From positions 1 through 41,615 of the IMG/VR virus record IMGVR_UViG_3300042691_042025: a DNA stretch of 41,615 nucleotides, one strand, 5' to 3'. This stretch comes from a virus. Positions 222 through 27,160 of the stretch are shown here, piece after piece; within the stretch, counting starts at the first letter, position 1, and every line of letters starts with the position of its first letter. A program made the position numbers and the translations under genes. The notes below the pieces were generated by a model. That model ran no database searches. It saw only the letters and a program-made list of their open reading frames with translations, and was not told where the DNA came from.

Positions 222-2070
222 TACTGGAGTATTTAAGGCCGAGGGCGTACACCCCCTTGTCCTACTCCGAGAGTACCTGCGCCTCTTTGGCCCAGGCGCC
301 CTCGAGTGGGAGCCCTTTGTCATCAAAAGGTCTATCGACGGAACGGTAAAGGAGAACATTTCTCGGGTAAACCTGACGAAGTTGATGGCAGCGATCACGG
401 TCGCAAACCACGACAACTTCTGGACGTATTGGGAGACATTCCATACAGTTTCTCAGGCCCTTGCTGGAAAGATCCCGTCCGTCAGTCACATCGACAATCA
501 GAGCATCTCCGACCTCATGTTGTCAGTAGATGCCGCCTTCAGAATTCGCAAAGACCTGGGGTCTGCCTCCGATATCCCAGAGTTTTCTGAGGAAGTTCGA
601 CGGTACATGGCCGCACAGCTTCATGAGTCTGGCATCTGGTATGCGCCTGAGCCGCTGGAGTTCTTGAATCCGCTGATCTCGGGCGAAACGCAGGTATGTG
701 GGCTTTGTCAGAACGAGGAGACTCCGAAAGAGGACGGTATGTGCAGCTATTGCACAGATCGTTACAACATGGACAGTCTTCTCAAGTTTGAACCAGATGA
801 CGACCTCAAGAAGGTCTTTGATGGCTCAAAAGTCAAGATTGTTGCCAAGTTCCCTACCAAGGGCGTCCAGGATGCTCTTCGTCGAGCCCAAAAGTCAGGG
901 GGAGAGGTCCTACAGGAGGACGCTGATGACATCTGTGCTGCGAAGATCTTAGAGGGTCTACGCGATCTCGAGAAGTACCAAGCCCAGCTTGAAGCTACAA
1001 AGACCGCAGGAATAGCCAACGCTCCGAAGGCTGTTACGGCGCACAACTTAGCTAACCCCGACAACGAAGTTCAGATGCCGGGCAGCCAAAGCGTACAGCC
1101 AAAGTCTCCGATCCTAAAGTATGTCAATCCTATATCTGTTGGAGGATCTGCGTTGGTTGCTGGAGCTCTGCTACGCAAGCCTGGAATGGCGGGGAAGTTT
1201 CTCAATACTGCTAAAGAGGTCGTAACAAAACCGATTACCTCAGTCGGGCGTTCGATGCGAGCTGGCGCTAACTATGTAGGGCCTGGGGCAGACGAATTTG
1301 CAAGAGGTGCTGCGCAAAGTAAACGAGTAGAGTTAATGTCCGATAGCCTACGGGACTTGAATACTACGCTCCAAAGTCAAGTAACTAAGGGACAGCCTCT
1401 AACCGGGAGAGTAGATCAGTTTGCTGCGCTTTCTGGGGGAGAACAAGGCCTAGGCACTTTCTCGGATAAACTTCGTCGATCTGGGTTTGCATCTGCAGGT
1501 CGGCAGAAGTTCAATAATGTTACCTTTGATACGGCTACTGCAGATAAGCTAAATAAACTGTTGTCAGAAATGGATGCTGCCTCGGCAGCAGGCAAGACGG
1601 TGGATTACTCTAAAATCAGAGGACTGTATGATGAGCTAGGAAATACGGCACGACAGCAGGTAGCAGCGGGAACTGCCCGGCAGTCAAAAGGCCTTGGTTA
1701 CTATGCGCCCGGAGAACGGGTAGTAGAAGTAGGCACCCCCATGCTGACTGGAGCAGCGGCATACGCCGACGATACTGATCCAGAAACAGGTAGAAAAAGA
1801 AGCACCGCCGAGCGCCTTGCGCGGGGCGTCACAGCTGGGGGAGTTGCTGCCGGGACTGGTGCACTTTTTGCTGGTAGAAATCTTGGGCTGTCCAAGGCCA
1901 ACCTCATTACAGGCACAGGTCGGTCAGGCTTTAGTGCTAAGGCGCTAGTTCCCGCAATAGGGGGCATGGCAGTAGGGTCTACTGTTGAAAACCTTGGGGC
2001 TGATGCAGTAGGGGCCGGAGCGCGAGCGATTGATACCGCCTTTGGACAAAAGAAGGATACTTCGTCATGA
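208..2070 (+). CDS. Unknown 620-aa virion-type protein with a four-cysteine zinc site and Gly-rich segments
   Basis: I do not recognise a family. The N-terminal third looks globular. It is followed by a compact CxxC-x11-CxxC cluster (C164, C167, C179, C182) that should bind zinc. The C-terminal half is low in complexity and rich in Ala, Gly and Ser, with two hydrophobic Gly-rich stretches near residues 308-322 and 540-556, similar to segments in other proteins of this window. The ATG at 208 follows a GGGGA-type ribosome site at a suitable distance. The gene overlaps the portal start by four bases (ATGA at 2067-2070), so translation is probably coupled. A minor head or ejected protein is plausible from context; no enzymatic motif is visible. 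Confidence 0.75.
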   Translation: MADIDTGVFKAEGVHPLVLLREYLRLFGPGALEWEPFVIKRSIDGTVKENISRVNLTKLMAAITVANHDNFWTYWETFHTVSQALAGKIPSVSHIDNQSISDLMLSVDAAFRIRKDLGSASDIPEFSEEVRRYMAAQLHESGIWYAPEPLEFLNPLISGETQVCGLCQNEETPKEDGMCSYCTDRYNMDSLLKFEPDDDLKKVFDGSKVKIVAKFPTKGVQDALRRAQKSGGEVLQEDADDICAAKILEGLRDLEKYQAQLEATKTAGIANAPKAVTAHNLANPDNEVQMPGSQSVQPKSPILKYVNPISVGGSALVAGALLRKPGMAGKFLNTAKEVVTKPITSVGRSMRAGANYVGPGADEFARGAAQSKRVELMSDSLRDLNTTLQSQVTKGQPLTGRVDQFAALSGGEQGLGTFSDKLRRSGFASAGRQKFNNVTFDTATADKLNKLLSEMDAASAAGKTVDYSKIRGLYDELGNTARQQVAAGTARQSKGLGYYAPGERVVEVGTPMLTGAAAYADDTDPETGRKRSTAERLARGVTAGGVAAGTGALFAGRNLGLSKANLITGTGRSGFSAKALVPAIGGMAVGSTVENLGADAVGAGARAIDTAFGQKKDTSS

Positions 2071-4112
2071 ACGTAATCACGAGCGAGGTAAACCGCTTCA
2101 ATCCCCGTCCGGTAACTGCCGAAGGTGGGCGGGGTTTTGGTATCCGGTACCCGTCTCCCTTCTTTGATATTGCCCAGCAGTTTTTACCTTCAAATCAGCA
2201 CGAGCTTCACAAGTGGTGTAGGTACTACTTCCTCACCAATCCAATCATCAACGCTGCCTGCTCAAAGATGGCGGAGTATCCCGTCACCGCTCTCATCTTT
2301 GAGTCGGATGATCCTGAAGTTCAGAAGCTCTACAAGAAGGTCGAGGATCACCTAAAGCTCAGATCTTTCCAGGTTGAGGTTGGACTCGACTATTTTGTGT
2401 ACGGAAACGCATTCGTCTCCGTGTTCCTGCCGTTTGAGAAGTACCTGATCTGCGGCTCATGTGGGGCTCGGTACCGCGCAAAGACCAATAGATTCCGCTA
2501 CAAGTGGCGTGACTCCCGCTTCTACATTCACAAGTGTACCTGTGGAAAGGAAGGCTACGCCAAACAACAGGACGTTTATATTCGGAGCTTTAGACAGATC
2601 CGATTGGTTCGCTGGAACCCGGAAAACATTGACATCAAGCATAACGAAATCACAGGAAAGACGAAGTACTACTTCAGGCTCCCGAAGAGCGTGATTAACG
2701 ACATCAAGCTCGGCGACTACGACGAGATCGAGTCCATCCCCCTCGAGTTCCTCGAAGCTGCGCGCGCGGGGAAGTCTCTGCTCTTCTCAGAGGACAACCT
2801 GTACCACCTGAAGCGCCCCACAATCGCGCAGAAGGACCAGGGCTGGGGCACTCCGCTAATCTTCCCGCTTCTGAAGGACGCCTTCTACCTACAGGTAATG
2901 AAGAAGGCCAACGAGGCTATTCTTATGGAGAACATTGTTCCCCTGAGAATGATCTTCCCTGGCCAGAATACGGGAGGAAATGAGGGCCCTTACGGGTCGT
3001 ACAACCTGACAAACTGGAAGAGACGGGTTGATGAAGAGATCAACATGTGGAAGCGGGACCACAACTACATCCCAGTTCTTCCTGTAAACATCGGATTTCA
3101 GCAGATCGGCGGGCAGGGCCGAGCTCTATTGATGTACCAAGAGATGCGGCTCCTTGCCGAGCAGATGCTTGCTGGGGCCGGCATCCCGGTGGAGTTCATC
3201 TTTGGCGGGCTTCAGTGGTCCGGCTCTAGCACATCGCTTCGCGCGCTTGAGAACATGTTCCTCGGGTACAACAAGCAGCGGCACGAGCTGGTAAACGTCT
3301 TCATTATGGGAAAGATCGCCTCGTTTATGGAGTGGCCCAAGATTACGAGTCGGTTTGACAAGTTCCGCATGGCCGACGATCTCCAGAGAAGCATGTTCTA
3401 CCTGCAGCTAAACCAGGCGCAGAAGATCAGCGATCACCGACTCATGGAAGAGCTCGGGGAGGACTTTGATCTCGAGTCCCAGCGCATGGGCAACGAGATC
3501 AAGAAGCAGCTCCAGGCGAACCGTAAGATGCAGGTTGCATCTGCAGATATTCAGGGAGAGGCGCAGCTGAGGACATCGAGGTACCAGGCGAAAGCACAGG
3601 CACTTTCGATGAAGGCCCAGGCGCAGACGCAGATGGAAATGCAGCAGGCGCAGATGCAGGCACAGCAGGCTCAGGCGCCGCAGCAGCCACCCCAGCAGGA
3701 GGCGGCGCCCGCAGAAGCGCAACCACAGCAGGCACAAGATCCCGCCGCGCAGGTTCAAGGAGTCCCGGAGGGAGCAACGATGTACGAGGAGAACGCGCAG
3801 GCGCCAAATGAAAGCGCGCTTCCGACTGCCATGGCAGGGGCCGCCTCTCCCCTTCAACAAGGCGCTGGTGGCGTAGACCTGAGATACGTCGCCCAGCGCG
3901 CGGCATCGTATTTCCGTACCCTAAAGAAAGAACAGGGCGCGGATGCTATGTTCCAGGCGCTACAGCAGCTTCAGACCGAGAACCCCCCGCTGTACCAGCT
4001 CGTTGTTCAACTTATGAACGACACTGGATCTCAGGTCAATCCTCTAGATGCCATGCAAAATCCAGCAGCTAATGGAACGCCGCAGGCCGACCCTGGAAGA
4101 CAGATTGGCTGA
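2067..4112 (+). CDS. Portal protein with zinc-binding insertion
   Basis: Portal proteins form the dodecameric DNA channel at one capsid vertex and dock the terminase and the neck. The 681 residues have the right size and pattern. There is an N-terminal region with NPIINAACSKMAEYP, a YFVYGNAFVSV strand, then an alpha/beta core with WNPENIDI, YHLKRPTIAQKDQGWGTPL and the helix-rich GAGIPVEFIFGGLQWSGSS stem/clip region, as in other myovirus portals. A cysteine cluster (C129, C132, C157, C159) inserted in the wing region probably binds zinc, which is unusual for portals. The last ~180 residues are a Gln/Ala-rich coiled coil and linker. It overlaps the upstream gene (ATGA) and ends in a hairpin facing a convergent gene. 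Family assignment is by recognition of the motif pattern, not by a search. Confidence 0.85.
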   Translation: MNVITSEVNRFNPRPVTAEGGRGFGIRYPSPFFDIAQQFLPSNQHELHKWCRYYFLTNPIINAACSKMAEYPVTALIFESDDPEVQKLYKKVEDHLKLRSFQVEVGLDYFVYGNAFVSVFLPFEKYLICGSCGARYRAKTNRFRYKWRDSRFYIHKCTCGKEGYAKQQDVYIRSFRQIRLVRWNPENIDIKHNEITGKTKYYFRLPKSVINDIKLGDYDEIESIPLEFLEAARAGKSLLFSEDNLYHLKRPTIAQKDQGWGTPLIFPLLKDAFYLQVMKKANEAILMENIVPLRMIFPGQNTGGNEGPYGSYNLTNWKRRVDEEINMWKRDHNYIPVLPVNIGFQQIGGQGRALLMYQEMRLLAEQMLAGAGIPVEFIFGGLQWSGSSTSLRALENMFLGYNKQRHELVNVFIMGKIASFMEWPKITSRFDKFRMADDLQRSMFYLQLNQAQKISDHRLMEELGEDFDLESQRMGNEIKKQLQANRKMQVASADIQGEAQLRTSRYQAKAQALSMKAQAQTQMEMQQAQMQAQQAQAPQQPPQQEAAPAEAQPQQAQDPAAQVQGVPEGATMYEENAQAPNESALPTAMAGAASPLQQGAGGVDLRYVAQRAASYFRTLKKEQGADAMFQALQQLQTENPPLYQLVVQLMNDTGSQVNPLDAMQNPAANGTPQADPGRQIG

Positions 4113-4731: not shown

Positions 4732-4868
4732 AAAAGATGAGGGCGAGCATTACCACTCGCCGAATTTTCCGGTGTCAACCGGCCAGTCGGGATCGGACAC
4801 GTTATCTCCTTTGCCGAGGGGTTATATCTCGGCTACGATACTTATGACCTGCTCGCGAGGGTATTTTC
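4732..4868 (+). promoter_or_regulatory. Intergenic leader of the RNA polymerase gene with further hairpins
   Basis: This non-coding stretch holds three more inverted repeats: GGCGAG/CTCGCC (4742-4761), CCGGT/ACCGG (4769-4782) and GCCGAG/CTCGGC (4813-4833). An AT-rich TTATAT and a TACGATACT follow at about 4822-4845 and could serve as a -10-like element, but no convincing -35 partner is seen. A GCGAGG ribosome site at 4855-4860 precedes the ATG at 4869 by eight bases. Promoters for both the polymerase gene and the opposing zinc-ribbon genes should lie here. Confidence 0.5.
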
Positions 4869-7800
4869 ATGCCTAATCTAAACCCGATTGAAACGCACAA
4901 GCTCATGGTTCAGCGGGCAAAGGAGGCTATTGCCACTCACTTCCCGATTGATGGAAGTAAACACTTGCTCGAGCTAGTTCGCGTCGAAGTCGAGGACGAC
5001 TCCGCAGCTGGCGCGTCACAGTTCAACCCGACTAACTACGAAAGTCAGCTTGATGCTCGCCTCAACGACCGGACGTGGGGACCGGACATTGTCGGAGTAT
5101 TTCGGCTGACGGATAAGGCCACTGGCAAGGTTCTTGACGAGCGCTCCAGAACTCTCGGCAAAATTCCTAAGATTACAACTCGCTATTCTTACATCGTGAA
5201 TGGAAACGAGATGCAGCTGGACAGCGTGTTCCGGCTGAACCCTGGGGCCTATCACGCAGAGGCGCAGAACGGAGACTTGCTGGCCAAGTGGAACGTAGCC
5301 GCCGGCAGCCGAATCGGATCTTTCGACATTTACATTGAAAGAAAAGATCCGAAGAAACTCGGACTCATGACTATGAGTGTGAGTAGCAGCGGGAGTTCTT
5401 CGGTTGAAATCCCCATCTACCCGATCCTTCGTGCGATGGGGATTGATGACGGGCAGATCAAGACGGCACTTGGCGAGAAGATCTATGTCGTCAACCGCGA
5501 CAAGAGCTCTCCGTCGGATCTCGTCAGATTTCACAAAGCTATTGAGAACCGCAACAAGGACACCAAGTACGCACCACCTGGAGCGCAAGAAGCGGCAAAG
5601 TTTACGAGAGAAGTCTTTGAGTCTGCGGAGGTCAGCCCTCAGACCATGAAGGCTGCGTTTGGGAAGGAGTTTGACCGCATCTCGGGTGATGCTCTGCTCT
5701 TATCTGCTAAGAAGCTCGTTGACATTAGCCGAGGTGATGTTGCCGAAGACGACCGCCAGAGCTTGTCAAACAAGCGCCTTTATGGCGCCGAAGATTTTGT
5801 TTACGAAGAGCTCACCAAGGGCAAGACGATCTACGCGCTGACTCGGAAGATCCGCAACAACGTAGATCGTAAGGACAAGATTCAAGACATCATCCCCGCG
5901 TCTACCTCTGGCTACGGCGCTGCAATCCTCAAGCCGTTCAAGGCCGGTCAGCTTCCTACGCAGACCAATCCCCTTCAGTTTGTCTCAAACCACACCAAGA
6001 CTACGATTCTCGGAGCAGAGTTTGGAGGTATTAAGGGAGAAAACATCAACCTTACGCAGGACAAGCTGATCAACCCGAGCCACCTCGGGCTGCTCGACCC
6101 GCTCCAGACCCCGGAGAGCTCAACTACAGGTATTCATCTGCACGTCCCACTCGGAGCTCAAAAGGTTGGGCATGACCTGATGGCGCAGGTTGTGAATGTC
6201 AGGACTGGAAAGATTGAGAGGAAAAGTGCGGCTGATTTAGAGCGTGCGGTCGTTGCATACCCGGATCAGGTGAAGATCGAAAAGCGTCCTGATGGGACGG
6301 CCAAAGTCACACCCCTCGAGCCCAACGTCATTGTTTACGACAATGATCGAAACACGTCAAAGCGTCCGTGGAAGGACGTTGACTACGTGCTGCCGTCTGC
6401 AAAGCTCCTCTTTGCCGTCAGCGCAAACCTGATTCCCTTTGTGCAAAACGACAACGGTAACCGCGCGATGATGGCCGCCAAACACCAAGAGCAGGCGGTG
6501 GGGTTGAAGGAACGAGAAGCCCCTCTAGTGCAGACGCAGGCGTCTGGTGGTGCCTCCTATGAGGATCTTGTAGGGGGAATGGCCGCTGTGTCTTCCTCTG
6601 CGGATGGAGTTGTCTCCGAGATTACAGATACAAAGATTGTGGTCAGCGGTAGCGACGGAAAGAAATACACCCACCCCATCTACAACAACTACCCGTTGAA
6701 TGGAGCAAAACATATGCTTCATTCGGAGGCGCGAGTAAAGAAAGGAGATCGCGTTCGCAAGGGTCAGCTGCTTGCAGACTCAAACTTCACGAGCGGCGGG
6801 AAGCTTTCGCTGGGCACCAATCTCCGTGTCGCCTACATCCCGTACCGTGGGTACAACTTTGAAGACGGTGTGGTCATCTCTGAGACTGCGGCCAAGAAGC
6901 TTGTCTCAAATCATTTGCACTCGGCAGAAGTCGAGATGCACCCCAACGTCGTCGTCAACAAGAAGATGTGGCGTCAGTATGCCGGCCCTGTAAAGGCGAC
7001 GCCGGAAATCTTACAGAAGCTAAACGACGATGGAGTTGTCAAGGTAGGCCAGAAGGTCGAGCCTGGAGACGTCCTCATTGCCAAGCTCCAGAAGCAGGTG
7101 CTCTCGAAGGAGACCGAGGACATTCGTCGTCGGCTAAAGGGCGCTGTTCAGGACTACACGGATGCAGGCGTCCGCTGGGATCACGAATACAACGGAGAGG
7201 TCGCCCGGGTCGTAAACAATGGCAGAAAGATTGTCGTCTATATTCGAACCGAGCAGACAATGGAGGTCGGTGACAAGCTCTCCGGTCGCCACGGAAACAA
7301 GGGAATTGTTACAAAGATTCTGCCCGATGACAAGATGCCGAGGGACAAAGGAGGAAATCCTGCGCACATCTTGATGTCCCCTGCAGGTATCCCCTCTCGT
7401 ATGAATCCGGGCCAGGTTTTAGAGACTGTTGCTGGGAAGATTGCGCTAAAGACGGGCAAACCTTTTGTTGTAAATAACTTCGACGCGTCTACTGACTACT
7501 CTGCCCTTGTCAAGGCGGAGATGAAGAAGCACAACGTCTCCGATACGGATGAGCTCTTCGACCCCGAAACGGGGGAGAGCCTGGGCCAGGTTCTCACCGG
7601 GCATCAGTACATCCTTAAGCTCGACCACCAGGCAGAGAAGAAAATCTCCGCCCGGGCGGGAGGTTTTGGCTACGCCTACAAGACCACAGGAGAGGCGTCA
7701 CAGGGATCGGGGCTGGGAGAAGGTGGGCAGCGCATTGGAGGCCTCGACACCTACACGCTGCTGGCGCACGGTGCCCGCCAAAACTTGCGGGAGATGCAGA

Positions 7801-10800
7801 CGTACAAGTCTGACCGCGAGCAGGCAGAGGATGTCTGGACACGGATCATGCGCGGAGAGCGTCCGCCTCCGCCCAAGGTCCCGCGCTCTATGGAGCAGTT
7901 TGTTCACTACATGCGTGCAATGGGAATCAACGCCGAAAGAAAGGGGCGTGAATATTCCCTGATGCCCATGACAGACAAGCAGACTGTCTCTCAGAGTTCC
8001 GGCGAGCTGGCCTTTCCCGAGAAGACCCTCGCCGCAAAGGGATCTCTTACAAAAGAAGAGCGGGGCGGTCTATTTGATCGAGCCAAGACTGGAGGCCTCG
8101 AGGGTACGAAGTGGTCCCATATCGACCTAGGCGTCAGAATTCCTAACCCAGTATTCGAGGAGCCAATTCGACTCCTATTGAAGATGAAAAAAACGGAGTT
8201 TCAGGCTCTATTGACTGAAACTGGTGCAGTTGGAAAGAAGTCAGGCTTTGAGATCATTGAAGAAAAGCTACGCGAAATCAACGTAGACAAAGAACTTGCG
8301 ACGGCTGAGAAGGCACTCTCTGAGACTACTGGAGATACGCTAAACGTCGCCTACAAGCGTGTCCGGTATCTTCGAGCTCTTAAGGAGCTTGAAGTCAAGC
8401 CTGTCGACGCGTACACAAACAAGGTTCTGCCCGTCCTTCCTCCGGCTCTGCGGAGGGTGAGCATCGGCTTTGATGGGACTCAGATCATTGACCCAGCAAA
8501 TAAGATGTACGCAATTATTGGGCAGATGGTAAAACAGCACGAGCAGGCAAAGAAAGAAAAGATGCCTGTTGGAGAAATTCAAAAGATCCAGGCGCAGATC
8601 TACGAGACAACGAAGGCGCTTCGAGTCTCTGGTATGCAAATGGAAGGGAAGCAAGTCCCAAGTTTGATGGACAAGTTGACAGGACTAAAGCAGCCAAAGG
8701 GGTCTTTCTTCCAAGCCGGAGTTCTTGGGAAGCGGCAAGACCTCTCCGGTCGTTCAGTCATCACACCAGATCCAGAGATGCCCCTCGATGAGGTTGGCAT
8801 TCCTCGGGAGATGGCGATGGAGCTCTACAAGCCCTTTGTCATCAAGGAGCTGTGGAGGACCATGGGTCGCGCAAACTCTCCGGGAGAGGCGCGTCTTATG
8901 ATCAAGAAAAACCATCCTGCAGCCTATCAGGCACTCGAGCGGGTTGTCAGAGATCGCCCTGCTCTAATGAAGCGGGACCCTGCGCTCCACATGTTCTCGA
9001 TCCTTGCGTTCCGCCCGCGGCTTGTGGAAGGCAAGTCGATCAAGATTCATCCACTTGTAACCGGAGGTTTTAACGCAGACTTCGACGGGGATACAATGGC
9101 ACTCTACGTGCCGATTACGGATGGAGCGGTCGAGGAGGCAAAGAACATGCTTCCTTCAAAGAACCTGTTCTCTCCAACCAGCGGATCCCTCATGGTGACG
9201 CCGAGCCAGGACTCAGTTCTGGGCATCTTCCAGGCTACAGAGTGGGGCAAGCCCGTGTCTGGGAGCTTCACTGTGGATGAGGCCCTTCGAGCACTCAAGG
9301 CAGGGAAACTGAAGTCGTACAACGTGATCAACGTCAAGGGCCATAGCAAGCCGACCACCGCAGGTCGGCTGCTGGTAAACTCAACGCTCCCCGATCAGTT
9401 CAAGGGCGATGCGGACCTTCTGTACGATCCGAACTTCCGAATGGCAAAGGGAGGCATGAAGCGCTTTGCTACTCGAGTTGCACGAGCGGAGCCCGAAGAT
9501 TTCTCTCGAATGATTGATGAGTGGAAGACCATTGGCTTTGGTCTTGCGTTCAAAAATGGGTCGAGCGTAAAGCTAAACGACTTCCACGACGGCTTTAAAC
9601 TTCGTGATGAGGTTCTCGTCAAGTATAAGAAGGAGGAAGATTCCATTCGTAAGGGTGGGGGCTCACTCAAGAGCAAGGACGAGAAGATTATTGAACTGTA
9701 CCAGAAGGCTCAGAAGGAGCTGAAGCAGGTAGGTGAGGCGCGGTACAACTCCACCCTAAACAACGGGATGTGGGATTGGGCGCGCTCCGGGGCGAAGGGG
9801 GATTGGAACCAGTTTGGCCAGATGGTCATGGGGCCGATGCTCGTACAGGACCCTCTCAACAGAACGGTCCCTTTCCCGATTACAAAGAGCTTTGGAGAAG
9901 GGCTACCAGTTTCGCAGTACTACGCTGCGCTGCATGGCGCACGTAAGGGTACGATTGACAGAGCCTCTGCGACTGCCAAGCCAGGTGCTCTGACTAAGGA
10001 GCTCATCAATACCGTCATCGACAACACGATTAAGACGAAGGACTGTGGGACCATCCGCGGGGCGCTTCTCTCGTCAATGGAGTCGGATGTCGAGGGCAGA
10101 TACTTGGCAGGTGACGTTCCCGTAAAGGACGGTCAGACCATCCCCAAGGGGACCCTGATCACTCCCCAGATCCGGTCCAAGATCAAGAATGACGGTCCTA
10201 AAAAGATCCTCGTTAGGTCTCCCCTCTACTGCACCGAAGTGAAGGGAATCTGTGCGACTTGCTATGGACTCAACGAGCGTGGTGCACTTTATTCTACTGG
10301 GACAAACGTAGGGATCATTGCCGGCCATGCATTAGGCGAGCCGATTACGCAGATGCAGATGAGAACCTTCCACACTGGCGGCGTTGGCGGGACCAGTGGA
10401 GTAGGTGACTACTTCACTGCAGCCGAAGACCTCTTCAAAGTCCCCAAGAAGCTTAAGGGGTCCGCCACGCTGTCTACGGTCGCAGGAAAGGTAGAAAAGA
10501 TTGAAACTGACGCCCTGGGTGGAAAGATCGTCACAATCGCAGGTAAACCTCACGTCGTTCCGTTTACAAACCCTCTTTTGCCTATCATTCGTGTAGGAGC
10601 GGAGGTTGACAAGGCAGACGCGCTGTCTGAAGGAAGAAAGAATCCTCACGACATTCTGTCCATCACCAAGAACATGGGTGCGGTTCGAAACCACCTGGCC
10701 GACTCACTCAACGAGCTGTACTCCGAGACTACGGGCAACGAGCGGCGTAGAAACATTGAGACGGTTATCCGCGCGATGACTGACTTGACTAGAATCGACG

Positions 10801-11225
10801 ATCCGGGCGATGATCACGCCTACCTCCGCGGGCAGCTGGTCCCGATGTCTGAGATTGAGCGCAAGAACAAAGAGCTTCGCTCGATGAACAAACGCGAGAT
10901 TCGACACGCACCGCAGCTCAAGGCCATGAACAAGATGCCGCTAGCAGCACAAGAGGACTGGATGGCGCGTCTGAACTTCCAGCGCCTTGAGGAAACCTTT
11001 GTTGAGGGTGCCGCGCAGAACTGGAAGTCAGATATTCATGGGCATCCGATTCCGGGAATCGCGCATGGAGCGGAGTTTGGACTCGAGCCTCCGGGCTCCG
11101 TAAAGCTGCCCAACGCCTCGGCCCTTCCTGAACGCATGTCAAACATCCCGAAAGTCCGACCCCCTGGAAACCCCAGCCCGTCCTTGCCCTCGCAGAAGAA
11201 CTCCGGCTTCTTCTCATTCCTTTAG
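4869..11225 (+). CDS. rpoBC: Single-chain DNA-dependent RNA polymerase: fused beta and beta-prime subunits
   Basis: This is a full bacterial-type RNA polymerase core in one 2118-residue chain. Beta part: a rifampicin-region equivalent (about 360-382), the TPE of the ETPEGPN loop (T414-E416), YNFEDGVVISE (from 662), GDKLSGRHGNKG (801-812, both catalytic-site lysines kept), IPSRMNPGQVLE and GGQRIGG (952). Beta-prime begins near GGLFD (1066). It has a clamp/sigma-binding helix region (from 1211), LGKRQDLSGRS (1286-1296), the Mg-binding NADFDGD (1402-1408), zinc site C1726/C1788/C1795/C1798 with bacterial spacing, trigger-loop MRTFHTGG (1831-1838), and a C-terminal NPHDIL...DPGDDHAY segment. The beta-prime N-terminal zinc ribbon and trigger-loop insert are absent, which helps explain why it is about 600 residues shorter than separate E. 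coli subunits combined. The next virion gene starts nine bases downstream, so they are likely co-transcribed. Confidence 0.97.
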   Translation: MPNLNPIETHKLMVQRAKEAIATHFPIDGSKHLLELVRVEVEDDSAAGASQFNPTNYESQLDARLNDRTWGPDIVGVFRLTDKATGKVLDERSRTLGKIPKITTRYSYIVNGNEMQLDSVFRLNPGAYHAEAQNGDLLAKWNVAAGSRIGSFDIYIERKDPKKLGLMTMSVSSSGSSSVEIPIYPILRAMGIDDGQIKTALGEKIYVVNRDKSSPSDLVRFHKAIENRNKDTKYAPPGAQEAAKFTREVFESAEVSPQTMKAAFGKEFDRISGDALLLSAKKLVDISRGDVAEDDRQSLSNKRLYGAEDFVYEELTKGKTIYALTRKIRNNVDRKDKIQDIIPASTSGYGAAILKPFKAGQLPTQTNPLQFVSNHTKTTILGAEFGGIKGENINLTQDKLINPSHLGLLDPLQTPESSTTGIHLHVPLGAQKVGHDLMAQVVNVRTGKIERKSAADLERAVVAYPDQVKIEKRPDGTAKVTPLEPNVIVYDNDRNTSKRPWKDVDYVLPSAKLLFAVSANLIPFVQNDNGNRAMMAAKHQEQAVGLKEREAPLVQTQASGGASYEDLVGGMAAVSSSADGVVSEITDTKIVVSGSDGKKYTHPIYNNYPLNGAKHMLHSEARVKKGDRVRKGQLLADSNFTSGGKLSLGTNLRVAYIPYRGYNFEDGVVISETAAKKLVSNHLHSAEVEMHPNVVVNKKMWRQYAGPVKATPEILQKLNDDGVVKVGQKVEPGDVLIAKLQKQVLSKETEDIRRRLKGAVQDYTDAGVRWDHEYNGEVARVVNNGRKIVVYIRTEQTMEVGDKLSGRHGNKGIVTKILPDDKMPRDKGGNPAHILMSPAGIPSRMNPGQVLETVAGKIALKTGKPFVVNNFDASTDYSALVKAEMKKHNVSDTDELFDPETGESLGQVLTGHQYILKLDHQAEKKISARAGGFGYAYKTTGEASQGSGLGEGGQRIGGLDTYTLLAHGARQNLREMQTYKSDREQAEDVWTRIMRGERPPPPKVPRSMEQFVHYMRAMGINAERKGREYSLMPMTDKQTVSQSSGELAFPEKTLAAKGSLTKEERGGLFDRAKTGGLEGTKWSHIDLGVRIPNPVFEEPIRLLLKMKKTEFQALLTETGAVGKKSGFEIIEEKLREINVDKELATAEKALSETTGDTLNVAYKRVRYLRALKELEVKPVDAYTNKVLPVLPPALRRVSIGFDGTQIIDPANKMYAIIGQMVKQHEQAKKEKMPVGEIQKIQAQIYETTKALRVSGMQMEGKQVPSLMDKLTGLKQPKGSFFQAGVLGKRQDLSGRSVITPDPEMPLDEVGIPREMAMELYKPFVIKELWRTMGRANSPGEARLMIKKNHPAAYQALERVVRDRPALMKRDPALHMFSILAFRPRLVEGKSIKIHPLVTGGFNADFDGDTMALYVPITDGAVEEAKNMLPSKNLFSPTSGSLMVTPSQDSVLGIFQATEWGKPVSGSFTVDEALRALKAGKLKSYNVINVKGHSKPTTAGRLLVNSTLPDQFKGDADLLYDPNFRMAKGGMKRFATRVARAEPEDFSRMIDEWKTIGFGLAFKNGSSVKLNDFHDGFKLRDEVLVKYKKEEDSIRKGGGSLKSKDEKIIELYQKAQKELKQVGEARYNSTLNNGMWDWARSGAKGDWNQFGQMVMGPMLVQDPLNRTVPFPITKSFGEGLPVSQYYAALHGARKGTIDRASATAKPGALTKELINTVIDNTIKTKDCGTIRGALLSSMESDVEGRYLAGDVPVKDGQTIPKGTLITPQIRSKIKNDGPKKILVRSPLYCTEVKGICATCYGLNERGALYSTGTNVGIIAGHALGEPITQMQMRTFHTGGVGGTSGVGDYFTAAEDLFKVPKKLKGSATLSTVAGKVEKIETDALGGKIVTIAGKPHVVPFTNPLLPIIRVGAEVDKADALSEGRKNPHDILSITKNMGAVRNHLADSLNELYSETTGNERRRNIETVIRAMTDLTRIDDPGDDHAYLRGQLVPMSEIERKNKELRSMNKREIRHAPQLKAMNKMPLAAQEDWMARLNFQRLEETFVEGAAQNWKSDIHGHPIPGIAHGAEFGLEPPGSVKLPNASALPERMSNIPKVRPPGNPSPSLPSQKNSGFFSFL

Positions 11226-11233
11226 GAGACATT

Positions 11234-11677
11234 ATGGACAAGATCGCAGCCTACGCCATCGCACTTCAGAACATCGAGCTCGAAAAACGAGCAGAGTTCA
11301 TCATTGAGAACTTTGGAACGTGCGAAGGGGAGATGCCTGTTGCATATCTGCAGGCATACGATGCGCTTCTCAACAAGGAAGCCAGCCTCTCTGCCATGGG
11401 TAGGGGACTTTCTACGATCGGAGAGGGAATTGGAGGACTAGCGGGTCGCGCGGGATCTTCACTTTCGAACATGGCCGGGGCAACACCAGGCGGAGTTCGT
11501 CAGACTCTCGGAGGGGCGCTTTCTCGAGCAGCTGAAGGAGTTAAGGCCAACAAGGACACCGCTGCCCTTCTGGGAGCGGGAGCGGTCGGTGCAACGGGAT
11601 TGGGCGTTGGAGCGCTAGGAACTGGCTTTGTTGGTGGACGCATGACTGCTCCGCGTCCCCAGGGCCCTAGCTACTAA
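11234..11677 (+). CDS. Small MDKIAAY-leader protein with Gly-rich C-terminus, 147 aa
   Basis: The N-terminus MDKIAAY is shared exactly with the proteins starting at 18171 and 18833. A K-E-A-S tetrapeptide lies at residues 48-51, the recurrent possible processing site. After it come Gly/Ser/Ala-rich segments at about 58-88, then a hydrophobic Gly-rich stretch at about 111-134 that could insert in a membrane. An AGGAGA ribosome site precedes the ATG. The stop overlaps the next start (TAATG at 11675-11679). I infer an internal or ejected virion protein; no enzymatic motif is seen. Confidence 0.75.
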   Translation: MDKIAAYAIALQNIELEKRAEFIIENFGTCEGEMPVAYLQAYDALLNKEASLSAMGRGLSTIGEGIGGLAGRAGSSLSNMAGATPGGVRQTLGGALSRAAEGVKANKDTAALLGAGAVGATGLGVGALGTGFVGGRMTAPRPQGPSY

Positions 11678-12771
11678 TGCCAAGCTCCCCGCTAAGGCCA
11701 ACAACCGCGCTCATTCTTCAAGGCCGCATTACTTCGGTTGATGCGGCTAGATGGCTTTGCACGGTTTTTTGTAGTGTAGTGAAAAGAGAGTACAGGGAGG
11801 TAGTCATCCCCTCGCTGTATTCGACCTCGTCTGGTGAGGGCGTTCACTACATGCCAGAGGTAGGGGCACAGGTATTCATCGTAACCCCGTCAGATGGTAG
11901 CAATCCGTTCCTCCTCCTATCGGCCCCGCAGGCAACTGCAGCTACAGAGGATGGGCAGCCGGGCTCATTCCATTCCGGTAGGCCGTTCTTAAACCCGGGG
12001 GACATGTCGCTTCTGACTCGAGATGGGAATGGCCTTATTGCGCGGCGCGGAGGTCTCACTGAGATTCGAGGCACTCCGCTTGCGAGAATACTTTTCAACC
12101 CATTCTCAAATGAAGTAACAACAATTGCAGAAAACTGGAAAGTAGACACGGTTGGCGGGTCGATGGAGTGGAGGTCAAACGACCCAAACACAGGACTTCT
12201 CGGAGACACGACCTCTCTGTTTACATCGGAATTTCGAGAGTTTGTCACCTCTCCATCCTGGTCGGTGCGATGTAACTTTGGCAACACGGAGGAGCGTCTT
12301 TGGTTTGATGTAGAACCGCCAGCTCCTCCGCTCATCGATACCTCCACAATCCTCTATGTAGAGGGAGCTGTGGGGCTCGAGCCTGTATCATTTGTAGTCA
12401 AACAGCCGGCAACCCTGGATCCGGCAGCCGTTGTTGCGCGAATCCAAGTTAGCCTAGATGAAACGGCTGAAGAAGTCGTACCGTCCGTAGACTTAAAGGC
12501 CTCTCGAGCTGGAGACATTAAGCTCAGCCTCCTGGGAAAGCTGCAAGTTACAAAAGGTGCGGATACGATCCCAGAGCCCGTCATCCTTGGTAGGTCCTTC
12601 TTAGAGAGCCTCCAATCATCTCTGACAGAAATTCAAGTCGCTCTTACCGCCCTCGGCACAGCTACCGCGACTCCTGTAGTCTTGTCAGAAACGTCGGCAT
12701 TGGTGGCAGACATTGCCGCATCCTTAGCATCCGGCAGCCCGCTCCTGTCCTCATCCTTCGAAACGGATTGA
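11677..12771 (+). CDS. Putative baseplate OB-fold protein (gpV/gp5-like), 364 aa
   Basis: The first ~90 residues follow the OB-fold of baseplate spike and hub proteins such as P2 gpV. A GRITSVD strand is followed by a second strand, then VVIPSLYSTSSGEGVHYMPEVGAQVFIV and a PSDGSNPFLLL edge. The middle contains a beta-rich GDMSLLTRDGNGLIARRGG region. The C-terminus is a helical, Ser/Ala/Thr-rich tail. The gene is coupled to the upstream MDKIAAY gene by TAATG. If correct, it would sit at the tail tip or baseplate. Assignment is by fold pattern only, so a different OB-fold virion role remains possible. Confidence 0.5.
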   Translation: MPSSPLRPTTALILQGRITSVDAARWLCTVFCSVVKREYREVVIPSLYSTSSGEGVHYMPEVGAQVFIVTPSDGSNPFLLLSAPQATAATEDGQPGSFHSGRPFLNPGDMSLLTRDGNGLIARRGGLTEIRGTPLARILFNPFSNEVTTIAENWKVDTVGGSMEWRSNDPNTGLLGDTTSLFTSEFREFVTSPSWSVRCNFGNTEERLWFDVEPPAPPLIDTSTILYVEGAVGLEPVSFVVKQPATLDPAAVVARIQVSLDETAEEVVPSVDLKASRAGDIKLSLLGKLQVTKGADTIPEPVILGRSFLESLQSSLTEIQVALTALGTATATPVVLSETSALVADIAASLASGSPLLSSSFETD

Positions 12772-20659: not shown

Positions 20660-20680
20660 GTGTCTTATGGCGGAGTTGTT

Positions 20681-22405
20681 ATGGATTTTTTAGACGAGCG
20701 TTTTAGCGGCCCTTGGGAGTACGAACTTCCGCGTAAAGAGCAGGAATACGTCTCAGAGGCGGAAGTGCGGGACGCTCAGATTCCGCTGACTCCGTCGGAG
20801 TTCATAGAGACCACGATGATGATGCCCAACCCGCACACGCGGAAGTTGGAGAACTTCTCCTTTGATGAACGTAGATACCTACGACAGATCTACGACATCC
20901 AAGCTCCGCGTGTTCTTCTTATGTGCGGAAGACAGGTAGAAAAAAGTACTACACTAGGAAACAAGACACTTTCATATGCGTGTCTGATTCCTCACTTTCG
21001 CATCCTTTACGTCTCCCCCTCTAGCCAGCAGACGAAGGAGTTCTCTAAGACTCGCCTAAGAGAGCCTCTCGAGACCTGTCCCGACCTTAGGACTTGGTTT
21101 CCAGGGCACCTCACAGATAACGTCTTCGAGAAGAAGGCAATTAATCGCAGTGAGATCAAGCTTCGATACGCGTTCCTCAACGCAGACCGATGCCGCGGAC
21201 TCTCAGCTGATCTCATCTGCATGGACGAGTTTCAAGATCTTCTTCTCGATAACATCCCAGTTATTGAAGAGGCCGCATCGCACAGTCCCTTCAAGTGGTT
21301 CATCTATAGCGGCACACCCAAGAGCCTAGACAACCCCATCCAGCGGTATTGGGACTCGTACTCGACGCAGAACGAGTGGGCTGTGCCGTGCCTACGGCAC
21401 GGGTTCAACAACAACCCGGGGACTTGGCATTGGAACATTCTTGGGGAGAAGAATATCGGCATCAATGGGCTTTCCTGCGATAAATGCGGGGAGTTGATTC
21501 GCCCAGATCATCCACAGGCCCAGTGGGTTCGTACGGGAAATCCAAACCCGAAGTTTGATACCTTTGAGGGATTTCGTATCCCTCAGCTCATGGTTCCCTG
21601 GCTGGACTGGAGCAACATTCTCACCAAGTACAACCAATACCCCCGAGCCAAGTTCTACAACGAGGTCCTTGGGGCTAGTTTTGACTCAGGCCAGCGCCCA
21701 TTGACAGAGGGCGACGTACAGGCCTGCTGTGATAACGAGTTTTCGGCTAAGTCAGAGAAGCTAAAAGAGTTCCTGCCGAAACTTCGAGGCAAGCAAGTCT
21801 ACGCGGGGATCGACTGGGGCCAGGACTCCAACAACTCTTACACGATTGTGATGATAGGAGCGTACATAGACGGGTTCTTTAGAATCGTATTTGCGCATCG
21901 GTTTTCTGGTGCAGAGGCAGAGCCAAAGGAGCAGATTGCCAAGATCAAGAAGCTCTTGGCTGCCTTTGATGTCACTCGAGTCGGAGTTGACTACGGCGGT
22001 GGCTACTGGCCCAACGACGAGCTCCTGAGAACATACGGGTCTCAGAAGATAGTCCGCTACCAGTACTCTACTCCGAAGACAATCATGAAGTTTGACTCAG
22101 ACAAGGGCCGGTTCCTTATTCACCGCTCAGAAGTCATGAGCGCCGTGTTCAACTCAATCAAGCGACGGGTGTTCAAGTTTCCGCGCTGGGCAGAGTTTGG
22201 TAACCCCTTTGGCTCGGACATGCTTGCAATCTTTTCGGAGTACAACGAGCGAACAAGAATGACTGAGTACAAGAAGTCTCCGAATACAACGGATGACTCT
22301 TTTCACGCACTCCTGCTGTGCTTCATCGTGTCAATGATCGACCACCCCCGGCCGGACATCCTTGTTCCAAGTGCTAAAATTGATCGAGAACTAGACACAG
22401 ACTGA
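20681..22405 (+). CDS. terL: Terminase large subunit (packaging ATPase-nuclease)
   Basis: TerL pumps DNA into the prohead through the portal and cuts concatemers. The ATPase shows Walker A GRQVEKST (83-90), Walker B LICMDE (178-183) and motif III SGTP (210-213). The C-terminal RNase H-like nuclease has acidic residues at D378 (GIDWGQD), D437 (GVDYGGG) and D538/D539 (TTDDSFHA). A CDKC pair (C266, C269) lies between the two domains. I chose the ATG at 20681, which has GGCGGAG five bases upstream, over a GTG at 20660 lying at a palindrome. The 574 residues are normal for the family. A strong hairpin follows the stop. Confidence 0.95.
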   Translation: MDFLDERFSGPWEYELPRKEQEYVSEAEVRDAQIPLTPSEFIETTMMMPNPHTRKLENFSFDERRYLRQIYDIQAPRVLLMCGRQVEKSTTLGNKTLSYACLIPHFRILYVSPSSQQTKEFSKTRLREPLETCPDLRTWFPGHLTDNVFEKKAINRSEIKLRYAFLNADRCRGLSADLICMDEFQDLLLDNIPVIEEAASHSPFKWFIYSGTPKSLDNPIQRYWDSYSTQNEWAVPCLRHGFNNNPGTWHWNILGEKNIGINGLSCDKCGELIRPDHPQAQWVRTGNPNPKFDTFEGFRIPQLMVPWLDWSNILTKYNQYPRAKFYNEVLGASFDSGQRPLTEGDVQACCDNEFSAKSEKLKEFLPKLRGKQVYAGIDWGQDSNNSYTIVMIGAYIDGFFRIVFAHRFSGAEAEPKEQIAKIKKLLAAFDVTRVGVDYGGGYWPNDELLRTYGSQKIVRYQYSTPKTIMKFDSDKGRFLIHRSEVMSAVFNSIKRRVFKFPRWAEFGNPFGSDMLAIFSEYNERTRMTEYKKSPNTTDDSFHALLLCFIVSMIDHPRPDILVPSAKIDRELDTD

Positions 22406-24705: not shown

Positions 24706-25268
24706 TGTCTATTCAAGTGCCTGCTTCCGCCTATAAGGCGTATGCTCGTGGGGAGATCTCTCAGTCGGAGCTTCTGGGGCTAGAAAAGTTTGCCTCCGAT
24801 CTCAGCAAGAGCGCATCGGTGCCCTTTGACCCTCTGTCAGCAAGAGGGGCCGCTACTCTAGGAGGCTTAGCTCTTGCTGCGCCTGCTTTGACATACGCCG
24901 GTGCTGCGGTCCCCAAGGCAATGGATAGCACGATGGGGGCGCTGACATTTAATAGAGATCTGAAACGCGTCGTAGAAGTAAATCCCCAGCTGGGGGACGC
25001 CTCTGATCCGAACCTTCGAATGGCGTTTAAGACCCTCCGTAGTGTCAACCCCGACTACTCAAAGGATCCTTTGATTGCCGGGACTATCCTCGATATGGTC
25101 ATGACCAATAGAATGGACCCCGACGATCCTTCGAGTGCTCCTCGGTTCGATCCTGCGCTGCTCCAGAGCATTCAGATGAGGGGTGGAAAGAGTCCTTTGG
25201 ATGTAGCTACGGACCAGGGTAAGGCCGCTGTTCCTGGCCTGGCACAAGGGCTGATTGGCGGCGACTGA
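24705..25268 (+). CDS. Small virion-type protein upstream of the protease, 187 aa
   Basis: The N-terminal ~40 residues form a helical leader ending in LEKFAS and LSKSAS, both candidate processing sites. A Gly/Ala-rich hydrophobic stretch (GAATLGGLALAAPALTYAGAAV) follows at about 48-70, then a polar domain with repeated Asp/Pro turns. It overlaps both neighbours by one base. I do not recognise a family. The architecture of leader, cleavage motif and Gly-rich segment is the one shared by several proteins here, suggesting an internal head protein. Confidence 0.65.
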   Translation: MSIQVPASAYKAYARGEISQSELLGLEKFASDLSKSASVPFDPLSARGAATLGGLALAAPALTYAGAAVPKAMDSTMGALTFNRDLKRVVEVNPQLGDASDPNLRMAFKTLRSVNPDYSKDPLIAGTILDMVMTNRMDPDDPSSAPRFDPALLQSIQMRGGKSPLDVATDQGKAAVPGLAQGLIGGD

Positions 25269-27160
25269 TGGAGAAATACTCCCTATTCTCAGGCAAGGCC
25301 GATTCCGGGGCTCCGCTCATTCATAGAGTGGAGCCCGGGAGTTCGTATGGCCTTGGGGACACGGAAGGCATCTCCAAGACTGCATCCGGCGAGCATATGC
25401 CGGAAGTAATCGAACTGATCGAGTCTATCAAGGCGCAGCCGGGCCGGCTTTACCTGGTCAACTCCGCGTTAGGCGCGGGTGAGTATGTAGGCTTCAACCT
25501 TCGAGGAGACTGGTTTACTGAGGCCGGTCTCGTCAGAAGCCCTCCAGGGTTTGAGAAAATCCCAGTATGGGACATTGACGCAAGAAGAAAGGCAGCGAAT
25601 CAGACAGAAGCGCTGCCTCAGTGGGGATCTCTTACCTGGGGATACCCGACTTTCTACAACGCGCATAGATTTCGTCACCATGTAAATAAAGACCCAGACA
25701 AAGCATATGGATTTATCCTAGGTGCTTTCTGGGACTCGCGCATGAAGCGCGTCATCCTCGTGTCTGAGTTGATCCGAGAGATGTGCGCGCGCCAAGGTGC
25801 GCTCGATCTCTACTCGAGAATTGAAGCGGGAGAGTTCCCTGACACGAGCATGGGGAGCAAGGTTCCCTACGACCGCTGCTCGATCTGCGGACATATTGCT
25901 CGAACTCCGATGGAGTACTGCAAGCACGTCCAGCGGGGAGCTCCGGCTCCCTACGGCATGAAGGCGATGCTCCCTGACGGCCGTGTTTGCGGCGTATACA
26001 ACGACTACCCCAGATTCTTTGACGACTCCTATGTCTTTGTGGGTGCTGAACGATCCGCGAAGGTGATGACAAACGTCACGCCGATGATGTCGGGGCAGAA
26101 CGCATATTCACAAACGATCTATCCCTTTCAGCCCATGGGGTTCAAGCTTGCCAGCGCCCCTCCGCAAAGTGCGGCGCCCGCTGTTATTCCTGATGCAGTC
26201 ATGGAAGAGCGATTAACTCGAGCCCTTGAGTCGCTTCCGGTATCGACCCCTCTCGAGAGAGAGGCTCTTCGTTACTTTATGCAGGAACGACTAGCCGAGG
26301 AACGCCTCGTCTCTGGGACGCTTGCAGCTTCGGAGCTACAGCTCTGGAGGGAGATTTCGGTTCAGACATTCCAGCGTAGATATGGAGTTAGTCCAGACCA
26401 GATCACTCATCTAAAGCAGATCTTTAACGAACGTGCCAATAACCTACTCGGCATAAAGACGGCTTCCTTCTCCAAGGTGGCTGAGATGCTCAAGCGCATT
26501 CCTGCTCCGAGCGCATCCCAGATGAGCTTTGTGCGCAAGGATGAGATGTGCCTGCCTGAACTTCCGAAAGACGTTTTAGAACGGATGGCTGAGTCGCCCG
26601 GAGTAAATCTTCGGGCAGCGGCCAAGCTCGGTGTTGTCCTGAAGCCTCAAGAGTTTATGCACGTACTTCTTCGTGCTAAAGATCCTGAAATGGCGGACGA
26701 CATCTACGAAAGGGGCGAGGTGTTTGCTCCTAGAGCTATCCGAATGGAATCTTCTCCATTCGACGCATCCTCGGACATTCCGTCGGGCGCCGTACAGCGG
26801 ATGTTGGAGCTGCTTGGGCCGCTTCTGACAAATAGATCTTTCGCTCCATCAGTTTTGCGGGTAAGAATGGTCAAGGAGGGAAGCAGCCCTGCCCCTTCGG
26901 ACCTAAGACCAGTGGACGGCTTTGAGGATATTGCGGACCTTTACAATGCGTACCGACTTGGTCTTGTTGACAAGAAACCGGACCTGTCTGCAGTCCAGGC
27001 CCCCTATGTATTCTCAAACTCCATCGAAGATGACGTAAAAATCGCAGACGATGCGATTGCGCTATCAAACATCTTGCTGCATGTTGCCTACTGGCCTGGT
27101 CTTGTATTAGGATTGCAATCGCAGGCAGAGGGACACTCTCCCGAAGACGCCCCCTACTAA
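25268..27160 (+). CDS. Probable prohead maturation protease, 630 aa
   Basis: The catalytic region (about 45-225) matches the layout of herpesvirus-fold prohead proteases. A His in HHVNKDPDKAYG (H137/H138) is followed by strands and then SMG (S194), the expected nucleophile. Directly after it is a zinc-like cluster, C204, C207, C218, H220 (CSICG...YCKH), which I recall from similar proteins of large phages. Candidate self-cleavage sites flank the domain: K37-T-A-S40 and K293-L-A-S296. The C-terminal ~330 residues are helical and may be a scaffold-like or internal part released on maturation. The position just ahead of the scaffold-like gene and capsid gene supports the role. Confidence 0.65.
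   Translation: MEKYSLFSGKADSGAPLIHRVEPGSSYGLGDTEGISKTASGEHMPEVIELIESIKAQPGRLYLVNSALGAGEYVGFNLRGDWFTEAGLVRSPPGFEKIPVWDIDARRKAANQTEALPQWGSLTWGYPTFYNAHRFRHHVNKDPDKAYGFILGAFWDSRMKRVILVSELIREMCARQGALDLYSRIEAGEFPDTSMGSKVPYDRCSICGHIARTPMEYCKHVQRGAPAPYGMKAMLPDGRVCGVYNDYPRFFDDSYVFVGAERSAKVMTNVTPMMSGQNAYSQTIYPFQPMGFKLASAPPQSAAPAVIPDAVMEERLTRALESLPVSTPLEREALRYFMQERLAEERLVSGTLAASELQLWREISVQTFQRRYGVSPDQITHLKQIFNERANNLLGIKTASFSKVAEMLKRIPAPSASQMSFVRKDEMCLPELPKDVLERMAESPGVNLRAAAKLGVVLKPQEFMHVLLRAKDPEMADDIYERGEVFAPRAIRMESSPFDASSDIPSGAVQRMLELLGPLLTNRSFAPSVLRVRMVKEGSSPAPSDLRPVDGFEDIADLYNAYRLGLVDKKPDLSAVQAPYVFSNSIEDDVKIADDAIALSNILLHVAYWPGLVLGLQSQAEGHSPEDAPY

Follow-up and report, generated by a model that had tools for sequence, protein, structure and literature searches.

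A phage-borne single-chain beta-beta-prime RNA polymerase, and a co-inherited sigma-70-family factor and a promoter-like element in its relatives

The DNA analyzed here, referred to as the window, is the virus record IMGVR_UViG_3300042691_042025, a fragment of 41,615 bases that covers a structural gene region. At positions 4869-11225 on the plus strand, it contains one open frame of 2118 codons, running from ATG to stop with zero internal stops, in which the beta subunit of a multi-subunit-type RNA polymerase (RNAP) is joined to the beta-prime subunit. It is nearly certain that the product of this frame is a DNA-dependent RNAP of the bacterial type, with its entire catalytic core in one polypeptide. 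The explanation that we consider the best one, and on balance probable, is that an alpha-free, one-chain core is injected into the host and transcribes non-structural genes together with a sigma factor of the Gp10 family. A more detailed version describes a packaged and injected two-protein machine of bacterial type consisting of the one-chain core, which would require neither alpha nor omega, and a private sigma factor, acting on promoters of its own, with an ancestral fusion from which multi-chain forms arose by fission; for this version, we hold the case evenly balanced.

A complete catalytic core in one reading frame

Profile and structure comparisons, which had been proposed as checks in an earlier sequence-only reading of the window, and alignment agree on the identity of the frame. 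On the beta side, Pfam identified Rpb2_6 (residues 577-932; expectation value (E) 4.5e-61) and Rpb2_7 (residues 952-1023) and, on the beta-prime side, Rpb1_2 (residues 1287-1428; E 2.7e-31), Rpb1_3, and Rpb1_5 (residues 1678-1845). PHROG profiles likewise gave RNAP matches, and the top matches in a PDB search were bacterial beta-prime chains, with values down to 6e-122. Alignment with the Salmonella subunits and Foldseek comparison of AlphaFold models divide the protein into a beta part (residues 1-1033; 4869..7967) and a beta-prime part (residues 1034-2118; 7968..11222). The transition lies at about residues 1034-1040: in the junction region (residues ~1034-1050; 7968..8018) the C-terminus of Salmonella beta is followed by the N-terminus of beta-prime, with no added linker domain. 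Owing to a length limit, the two halves were modelled separately and the fold matches hold per half. The beta half (predicted local distance difference test score, pLDDT, 82.5) matched bacterial beta with E 1e-72 and a template modelling (TM) score of about 0.7, and the beta-prime half (pLDDT 85.9) matched bacterial beta-prime with E 1e-67 and a TM score of 0.85.

The sequence-only reading had described a phage-borne single chain that is catalytically complete, and all motifs on which it relied were found in register with the matching positions of Salmonella beta or beta-prime. These include GDKLSGRHGNKG (residues 801-812; 7269..7304) with the active-site lysines K803 and K811, the catalytic Mg-binding loop NADFDGD (residues 1402-1408; 9072..9092), the second beta-prime zinc site formed by C1726, C1788, C1795 and C1798 (10044..10262), and the trigger loop region (10344..10403), where MRTFH opens the stretch MRTFHTGG at residues 1831-1838. 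The bridge helix region was located by alignment at 9876..9965. In an alignment of 59 dereplicated phage members of the clade described below, both lysines as well as the active-site aspartates D1404 and D1406 are invariant, while the third of these aspartates, D1408, is present in 58 rows and every cysteine of the second zinc site in 57. The enzyme is presumably catalytically active. The trigger loop carries no enterobacterial SI3 insertion, window residues 1805-1860 corresponding to Salmonella beta-prime 906-1149. The clamp helices, the docking site of sigma region 2 in bacteria, are divergent yet present (8499..8654, aligned with Salmonella beta-prime ~265-323). At the positions which we take to be D516, H526 and S531 of the rifampicin pocket in Escherichia coli numbering, the alignment places T364, N374 and T379, and transcription by the window enzyme is therefore predicted to be insensitive to rifampicin.

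The bacterial appearance noted in the sequence-only reading holds for the core motifs but does not extend to the whole enzyme, as the enzyme has lost the zinc-binding domain at the N-terminus of beta-prime, and the alpha and omega subunits went undetected (see below). At the deletion site (8058..8144), the window protein has 29 residues and zero cysteines. All 59 clade rows have 24-32 residues without a cysteine at this site, compared with 61-63 residues and four to five cysteines in all 19 bacterial sequences used for comparison.

Chain architectures among related phages

Eleven other IMG/VR contigs contain full-length, unbroken frames that are 71-89% identical to the window polymerase, a match far beyond chance, and one-frame polymerases are present in more than 100 other viral loci at ~30-89% identity. 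A wider search distinguished three architectures. The one-chain form accounts for the majority of loci, with identities down to ~31-33%. In the two-chain form, represented by two cultured phages, D69 of Vibrio and Arash of Salmonella, the first chain comprises beta and the N-terminal part of beta-prime (beta-prime-N) up to query residue ~1490, and the second comprises the C-terminal part (beta-prime-C) from residue ~1497. The three-chain form is interrupted at residues ~1124-1131 and 1490.

Several loci show peculiarities of annotation or gene structure. In Arash (L013, OQ632216.1), gp206 is annotated as the beta subunit but actually also includes, fused to beta, the half of beta-prime that holds the catalytic site; only the C-terminal part of beta-prime is encoded by gp216. 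Vibrio phage D181 has two group I introns (L014 4494-4774 and 697-904): one, scored at 100.7 bits by Rfam and accompanied by a gene for a homing endonuclease, interrupts the gene for beta/beta-prime-N, and the other is found upstream of the portal gene. At locus L052 (7920-14029), an enzyme of the one-chain type is split near query residue 1926-1975 into 1859 and 129 amino acids (aa), by either a frameshift or a further fission.

Partner subunits

Each of 25 related records contains exactly one frame bearing Rpb1_2. The alpha (RNA_pol_L) and omega families gave matches in none of these 25 records with controls working, the records possibly being fragments. The single-chain core would assemble without alpha or omega, because the fusion holds both large subunits together.

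A sigma factor was traced more readily by homology than by Pfam. Sigma70_r2 alone was detected in 11 of the 25 records in a patchy manner, and a homology search with one divergent member recovered a sigma family, A6, in 21 of 30 records, the misses being mostly shorter contigs. The family is present in G001, G002 and G023, the nearest long relatives of the window, and its orthologue in Arash is Gp10. In 20 members, Pfam recognized region 3 (Sigma70_r3) 19 times, region 4 six times and region 2 three times; a profile match to SigA (E 3.5e-16) spans positions 31-261 and covers sigma-70 regions 2, 3 and 4. Among 50,697 phage records, the family was found only in Arash, D69, D181, D148 and two short unannotated fragments, and a search of five other phages that encode a polymerase detected no member. 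Distances between sigma factors correlate with those between polymerases (Spearman 0.82; 0 of 2000 permutations were as high). The comparisons point to a Gp10-type sigma factor that is nearly confined to phages of the clade and was co-inherited with the polymerase, and this member of the sigma-70 family is the factor with which the single-chain core is proposed to pair.

A promoter-like element on the non-structural strand

In G001, the heptamer GTCATAA is over-represented upstream of genes and is preceded by a run of A 14-18 bases before it. Its generalized form, G[GT][CT]ATAA, is more frequent between genes than expected in each of the seven clade genomes examined (e.g., 20 observed versus 3.0 expected, and 25 versus 5.6), and in six of these it surpasses no fewer than 197 of 200 permuted motifs. 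It occurs upstream of 64 of 349 genes lying opposite to the polymerase strand, as compared with five of 233 genes on the same strand (p 1.5e-10). In D69, the opposite strand holds genes for helicase, RNase H and similar functions, and the polymerase strand holds structural-type genes. The host-type motifs TATAAT and TTGACA showed no clear enrichment in the regions scanned for the element. GTCATAA has a single match in the window, at 4842-4848 on the minus strand, which is no more than expected by chance in this structural region. Spacing and sequence of the element recall the sigma-28 promoter, a resemblance that serves as a lead only.

In the proposed mechanism, core and sigma factor would be packaged in the virion and enter the cell along with the DNA. 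The holoenzyme would then transcribe the non-structural strand from promoters composed of a -10-like G[GT][CT]ATAA(G) and an A-rich element ~14-19 bases upstream. Other promoters would serve the structural genes, the polymerase gene among them.

Proposed virion association and its alternatives

The case for packaging comes from the virion mass spectrometry of Arash, in which Gp206 (beta and beta-prime-N) ranks first with 3516 spectra and 128 unique peptides, and in which Gp216 (beta-prime-C) and the sigma factor Gp10 were detected with 1210 and 467 spectra, respectively (PMC10585845). By our own arithmetic, this amounts to ~2.3 spectra per residue for Gp206, 2.0 for Gp216 and 2.0 for Gp10, next to 1.5 for the portal and 4.3 for the capsid protein; the values are compatible with similar copy numbers of the three proteins, spectral counts being a crude measure. 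A second Arash sigma factor, Gp196, is absent from the same mass spectrometry list (PMC10585845). By analogy with this relative, a virion role may also be assumed for the window enzyme.

Several observations weigh against injection of a dedicated holoenzyme. Virion detection comes from a two-chain relative with ~30% identity to the window enzyme. The Arash preparation also contained many replication enzymes, ribonucleotide reductase, primase and ligase among them, and its authors named both early transcription and carry-over as possibilities (PMC10585845). No sigma gene was found in the 41.6-kilobase window by Sigma70_r4 or Gp10-family searches, and several element-bearing members of the clade have a second sigma factor. 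With regard to the element, G[GT][CT]ATAA was generalized from the G001 motif after the k-mers of other genomes had been viewed, it does not rise above permuted motifs in G002, and among four control phages, in which the signal is weaker or absent, Carin-5 and Va2 show a weaker enrichment. Early timing is deduced from strand and from the non-structural gene content. A literature search found no biochemistry on any member of the clade.

Several of these points would fit an enzyme that is real but not part of the virion. Such an enzyme would be produced in the infected cell to transcribe middle or late genes and would have reached the Arash particles by carry-over, and the sigma factor would mainly redirect the host polymerase to G[GT][CT]ATAA promoters; the replication enzymes in the preparation and the second sigma factors agree with this, as do the Arash and D69 variants of the element, which contain TATAA and are thereby close to the host -10 motif. 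However, no protein was detected more strongly than the fused chain, which yielded 128 unique peptides where reductase, primase and DNA ligase yielded 2-11 (PMC10585845), and the polymerase gene sits among portal and structural genes. Furthermore, the sigma family is nearly confined to polymerase carriers and co-varies with the polymerase, and TATAAT and TTGACA are unenriched where the element is found. We regard a non-virion enzyme as unlikely, though worth keeping in view beside an injected holoenzyme.

Order of fusion and fission

The polymerase tree was rooted with bacteria as outgroup and calculated under the LG+C20 model with posterior mean site frequencies (PMSF); earlier trees include FastTree reconstructions. 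It comprises phage and bacterial rows, with no archaeal, eukaryotic, Helicobacter or Wolbachia rows. All phage rows cluster together and are separated from the bacteria with a value of 100 in the Shimodaira-Hasegawa-like approximate likelihood ratio test (SH-aLRT), a grouping that the earlier trees share. Within this group, two-chain and three-chain rows form a clade (SH-aLRT 99) in which the three-chain rows are nested, and one-chain rows lie outside and may represent a grade instead of a clade. Locus L054 appeared as the deepest branch in FastTree, but its position is unstable between models and nothing was built on it. In three-chain phages, chain 1 extends ~90 residues beyond the beta/beta-prime boundary and includes the shortened zinc-domain site. 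Together, the rooting with bacteria and the displaced positions of the breaks suggest that fusion preceded fission, the simplest history being one fusion, followed by one fission after the catalytic barrel and one fission inside beta-prime. In this history, the two-chain enzymes of Arash and D69 and the three-chain enzymes would go back to a fused ancestor that underwent fission. The region of the two-chain break is also where beta-prime is split in jumbo phages and cyanobacteria (PMC7598289), a correspondence of region by description that does not imply an identical site.

The opposite order, with the multi-chain enzymes of Arash, D69 and the three-chain phages being primitive and the single chain a derived fusion, would be in line with a proposal that the split polymerases of jumbo phages are primitive (Iyer et al., 2021; PMC7824862). 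It is opposed by the nesting of three-chain rows within two-chain rows, by the unsplit beta-prime of the bacteria in the tree, and by the first three-chain break, which lies ~90 residues inside beta-prime so that chain 1 retains the beta/beta-prime junction. In our view, this order is improbable.

The sequence-only reading had also raised derivation from a host fusion. Recent capture of a fused host rpoBC gene, as it exists in Helicobacter and Wolbachia, would explain the high similarity of the core motifs to bacteria, and natural fusions of this kind are known. Nonetheless, the window enzyme groups with other phages at a distance from bacteria, the beta-prime N-terminal zinc domain is absent in all phage rows, and the fusion is clade-wide down to ~30% identity. 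Trees and zinc-domain loss thus led us to reject recent host capture, which we consider very improbable. Least credible of all is that genes which are in fact separate were joined in assembly or sequencing, for which the one locus with overlapping frames, L231, might be cited. L231 is 99.85% identical to the intact L224, so that an indel accounts for its split; complete single frames were recovered at 75 of 80 loci in a third search, with four of the other five cut by stretch ends and L231 as the fifth; fused frames of independent contigs carry insertions with intein hallmarks; and a join was rejected on account of the intact frames in many independent contigs. Neither outcome that the sequence-only reading had named as speaking against it was observed, since near relatives also have the fused form and both modelled halves adopt the folds of their bacterial counterparts.

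The insertions in question measure ~240-510 aa and occur in the fused frames of L026, L031, L045, L051, L055, L056, L061 and L086. Many show the intein hallmarks of a Cys start, terminal HN or GN and homing-endonuclease motifs, and the insertion points fall exactly in catalytic motifs, namely behind TPE, behind DFDGD and within the trigger loop.

Comparison with known systems

Judged by description, this clade of contractile-tailed phages probably corresponds to the mReC clade of an earlier study (Weinheimer and Aylward, 2020; PMC7481178), although the published contigs were not found by name among the retrieved loci. Both are phage-encoded, derive from IMG/VR, align easily to bacterial beta and beta-prime, keep NADxDGD, stand apart from cellular enzymes and are accompanied by hallmark genes of tailed phages (PMC7481178). 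The mReC definition combines a COG0085-like beta, a COG0086-like beta-prime, NADxDGD and a length above 800 aa; the window frame shows Rpb2_6, Rpb1_2, NADFDGD and 2118 aa, with Pfam used in place of the COG models. Its phage group is separate from the bacterial rows (SH-aLRT 100), and terminase, portal homologue, capsid and tail sheath genes are present on the contig. The mReC-typical capsid PF07068 and terminase PF03237 were not found, the window capsid having no Pfam hit and the terminase matching PF05876. These two families are typical rather than defining for mReC, because they were assigned in a minority of its members (8 capsids and 17 terminases of 97; PMC7481178).

Since the clade is likely the known mReC group, the window enzyme is probably not a new kind of enzyme, and the novelty claimed in the sequence-only reading is reduced to the fusion: a phage clade with bacterial-like beta and beta-prime has been known since 2020, but the one-chain form seems undescribed. 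In the mReC paper, beta and beta-prime figure as two subunits, crAssphage is the only case for which a fusion is mentioned, and neither sigma nor alpha appears in the text (PMC7481178). A literature search that excluded subscription papers and preprints found no description of the single-chain form, of the order in which fusion and fission took place, of the missing zinc domain, of the private sigma factor inherited along with the polymerase or of the promoter-like element. A phage gene termed RNAP1, which encodes beta and beta-prime and lies at the base of the mReC clade (PMC10159854), may be another fused case, which the text of that paper does not state.

The closest cultured counterparts are Arash (Gp206/Gp216) and D69, D181 and D148, which share near full-length homology, the lost zinc domain, the gene order portal-small gene-polymerase and the Gp10-type sigma factor. 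They differ in having two chains, beta and beta-prime-N (~1525 aa) and beta-prime-C (~606 aa), with the break after the catalytic barrel, and their polymerase is annotated merely as beta, beta-prime or hypothetical. In Arash, the polymerase proteins were found in virions.

The enzymes of the phiKZ/AR9 type are likewise phage-encoded and lack alpha and omega, and one of the two enzymes is packaged. Unlike the one-chain window enzyme, they are highly diverged, consist of four to five chains and occur as two enzymes per phage; one Rpb1_2 frame was found in each of 25 relatives' records, the window itself being a fragment. No recognizable initiation-factor homologue is present in these phages (PMC7598289), as opposed to the Gp10-type sigma in 21 of 30 clade records. 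The crAss-like RNAP also contains beta- and beta-prime-like parts in one polypeptide. The sequence-only reading had used it as a contrast with a single-subunit fold, a contrast that is not apt, since PMC7481178 itself calls it a fused beta/beta-prime protein; it does, however, show no recognizable similarity to the bacterial beta and beta-prime profiles (PMC7481178) that match the window protein.

The cellular genes of Helicobacter and Wolbachia combine beta and beta-prime in one frame, and their enzymes use alpha and keep the beta-prime zinc domain. The window frame lies on a viral contig, the zinc domain is absent and alpha is undetected in its relatives. Cobetia phage Carin-5 and Yersinia phage GN1 (L188, L191) also encode beta (~925 aa) and beta-prime (~1085 aa), but as separate genes near the DNA polymerase gene, with the zinc domain kept, on a long separate branch and with no Gp10-type sigma found. 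In Carin-5, an annotated sigma gene is located just upstream.

In cells, an alpha dimer serves as the platform on which multi-subunit polymerases assemble, and how jumbo-phage enzymes manage without alpha has been stated as unknown (PMC7598289). A one-chain core of bacterial look would offer a clean test of alpha-free assembly. It is also informative as to whether the split state of phage polymerases is primitive or derived, a question on which the trees and the displaced breakpoint favor fission. As the cultured phages Arash and D69 share the core, the sigma factor and the promoter-like element, the model can be tested now.

Gene neighborhood in the window

The placement of the polymerase in a module of virion genes, as described in the sequence-only reading, was borne out. 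Upstream lies the portal gene (2067..4112, plus strand, like all genes listed here), a homologue of Arash gp204, which is annotated as portal (E 7e-92); its D69 counterpart matches at 2e-86 and the PHROG portal profile at 8e-4. Of 61 one-chain loci, 51 have a portal homologue close to the polymerase, as do 17 of 18 multi-chain loci. Downstream, a probable baseplate protein (11677..12771) is indicated by a weak match to Phage_base_V (E 0.004), below the curated Pfam cut-off, and has homologues in 50 of 61 one-chain loci. Further downstream are the terminase large subunit (20660..22405; phrog_675, E 2.8e-58; Pfam GpA_ATPase, 2e-8), a probable head maturation protease (25268..27160; phrog_18299, E 2.7e-5; D69 and Arash homologues at ~1e-33), the major capsid protein (31579..32709; phrog_2522, E 6.6e-5; D69 homologue at 1e-19) and the tail sheath of a contractile tail (36877..40614; phrog_279, E 6.9e-11; D69 homologue at 3e-15). 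Arash is a myovirus (PMC10585845).

The INPHARED phage collection includes bacterial contigs and hence is not clean: OR846602, OR844998, AFYI01000006 and other hits resemble bacterial rpoB/rpoC, AFYI01000006 being a Salmonella bacterial contig. In the window, an open frame of 573 codons (38803-40524, minus strand) runs antisense to the tail sheath gene and is probably an effect of composition.

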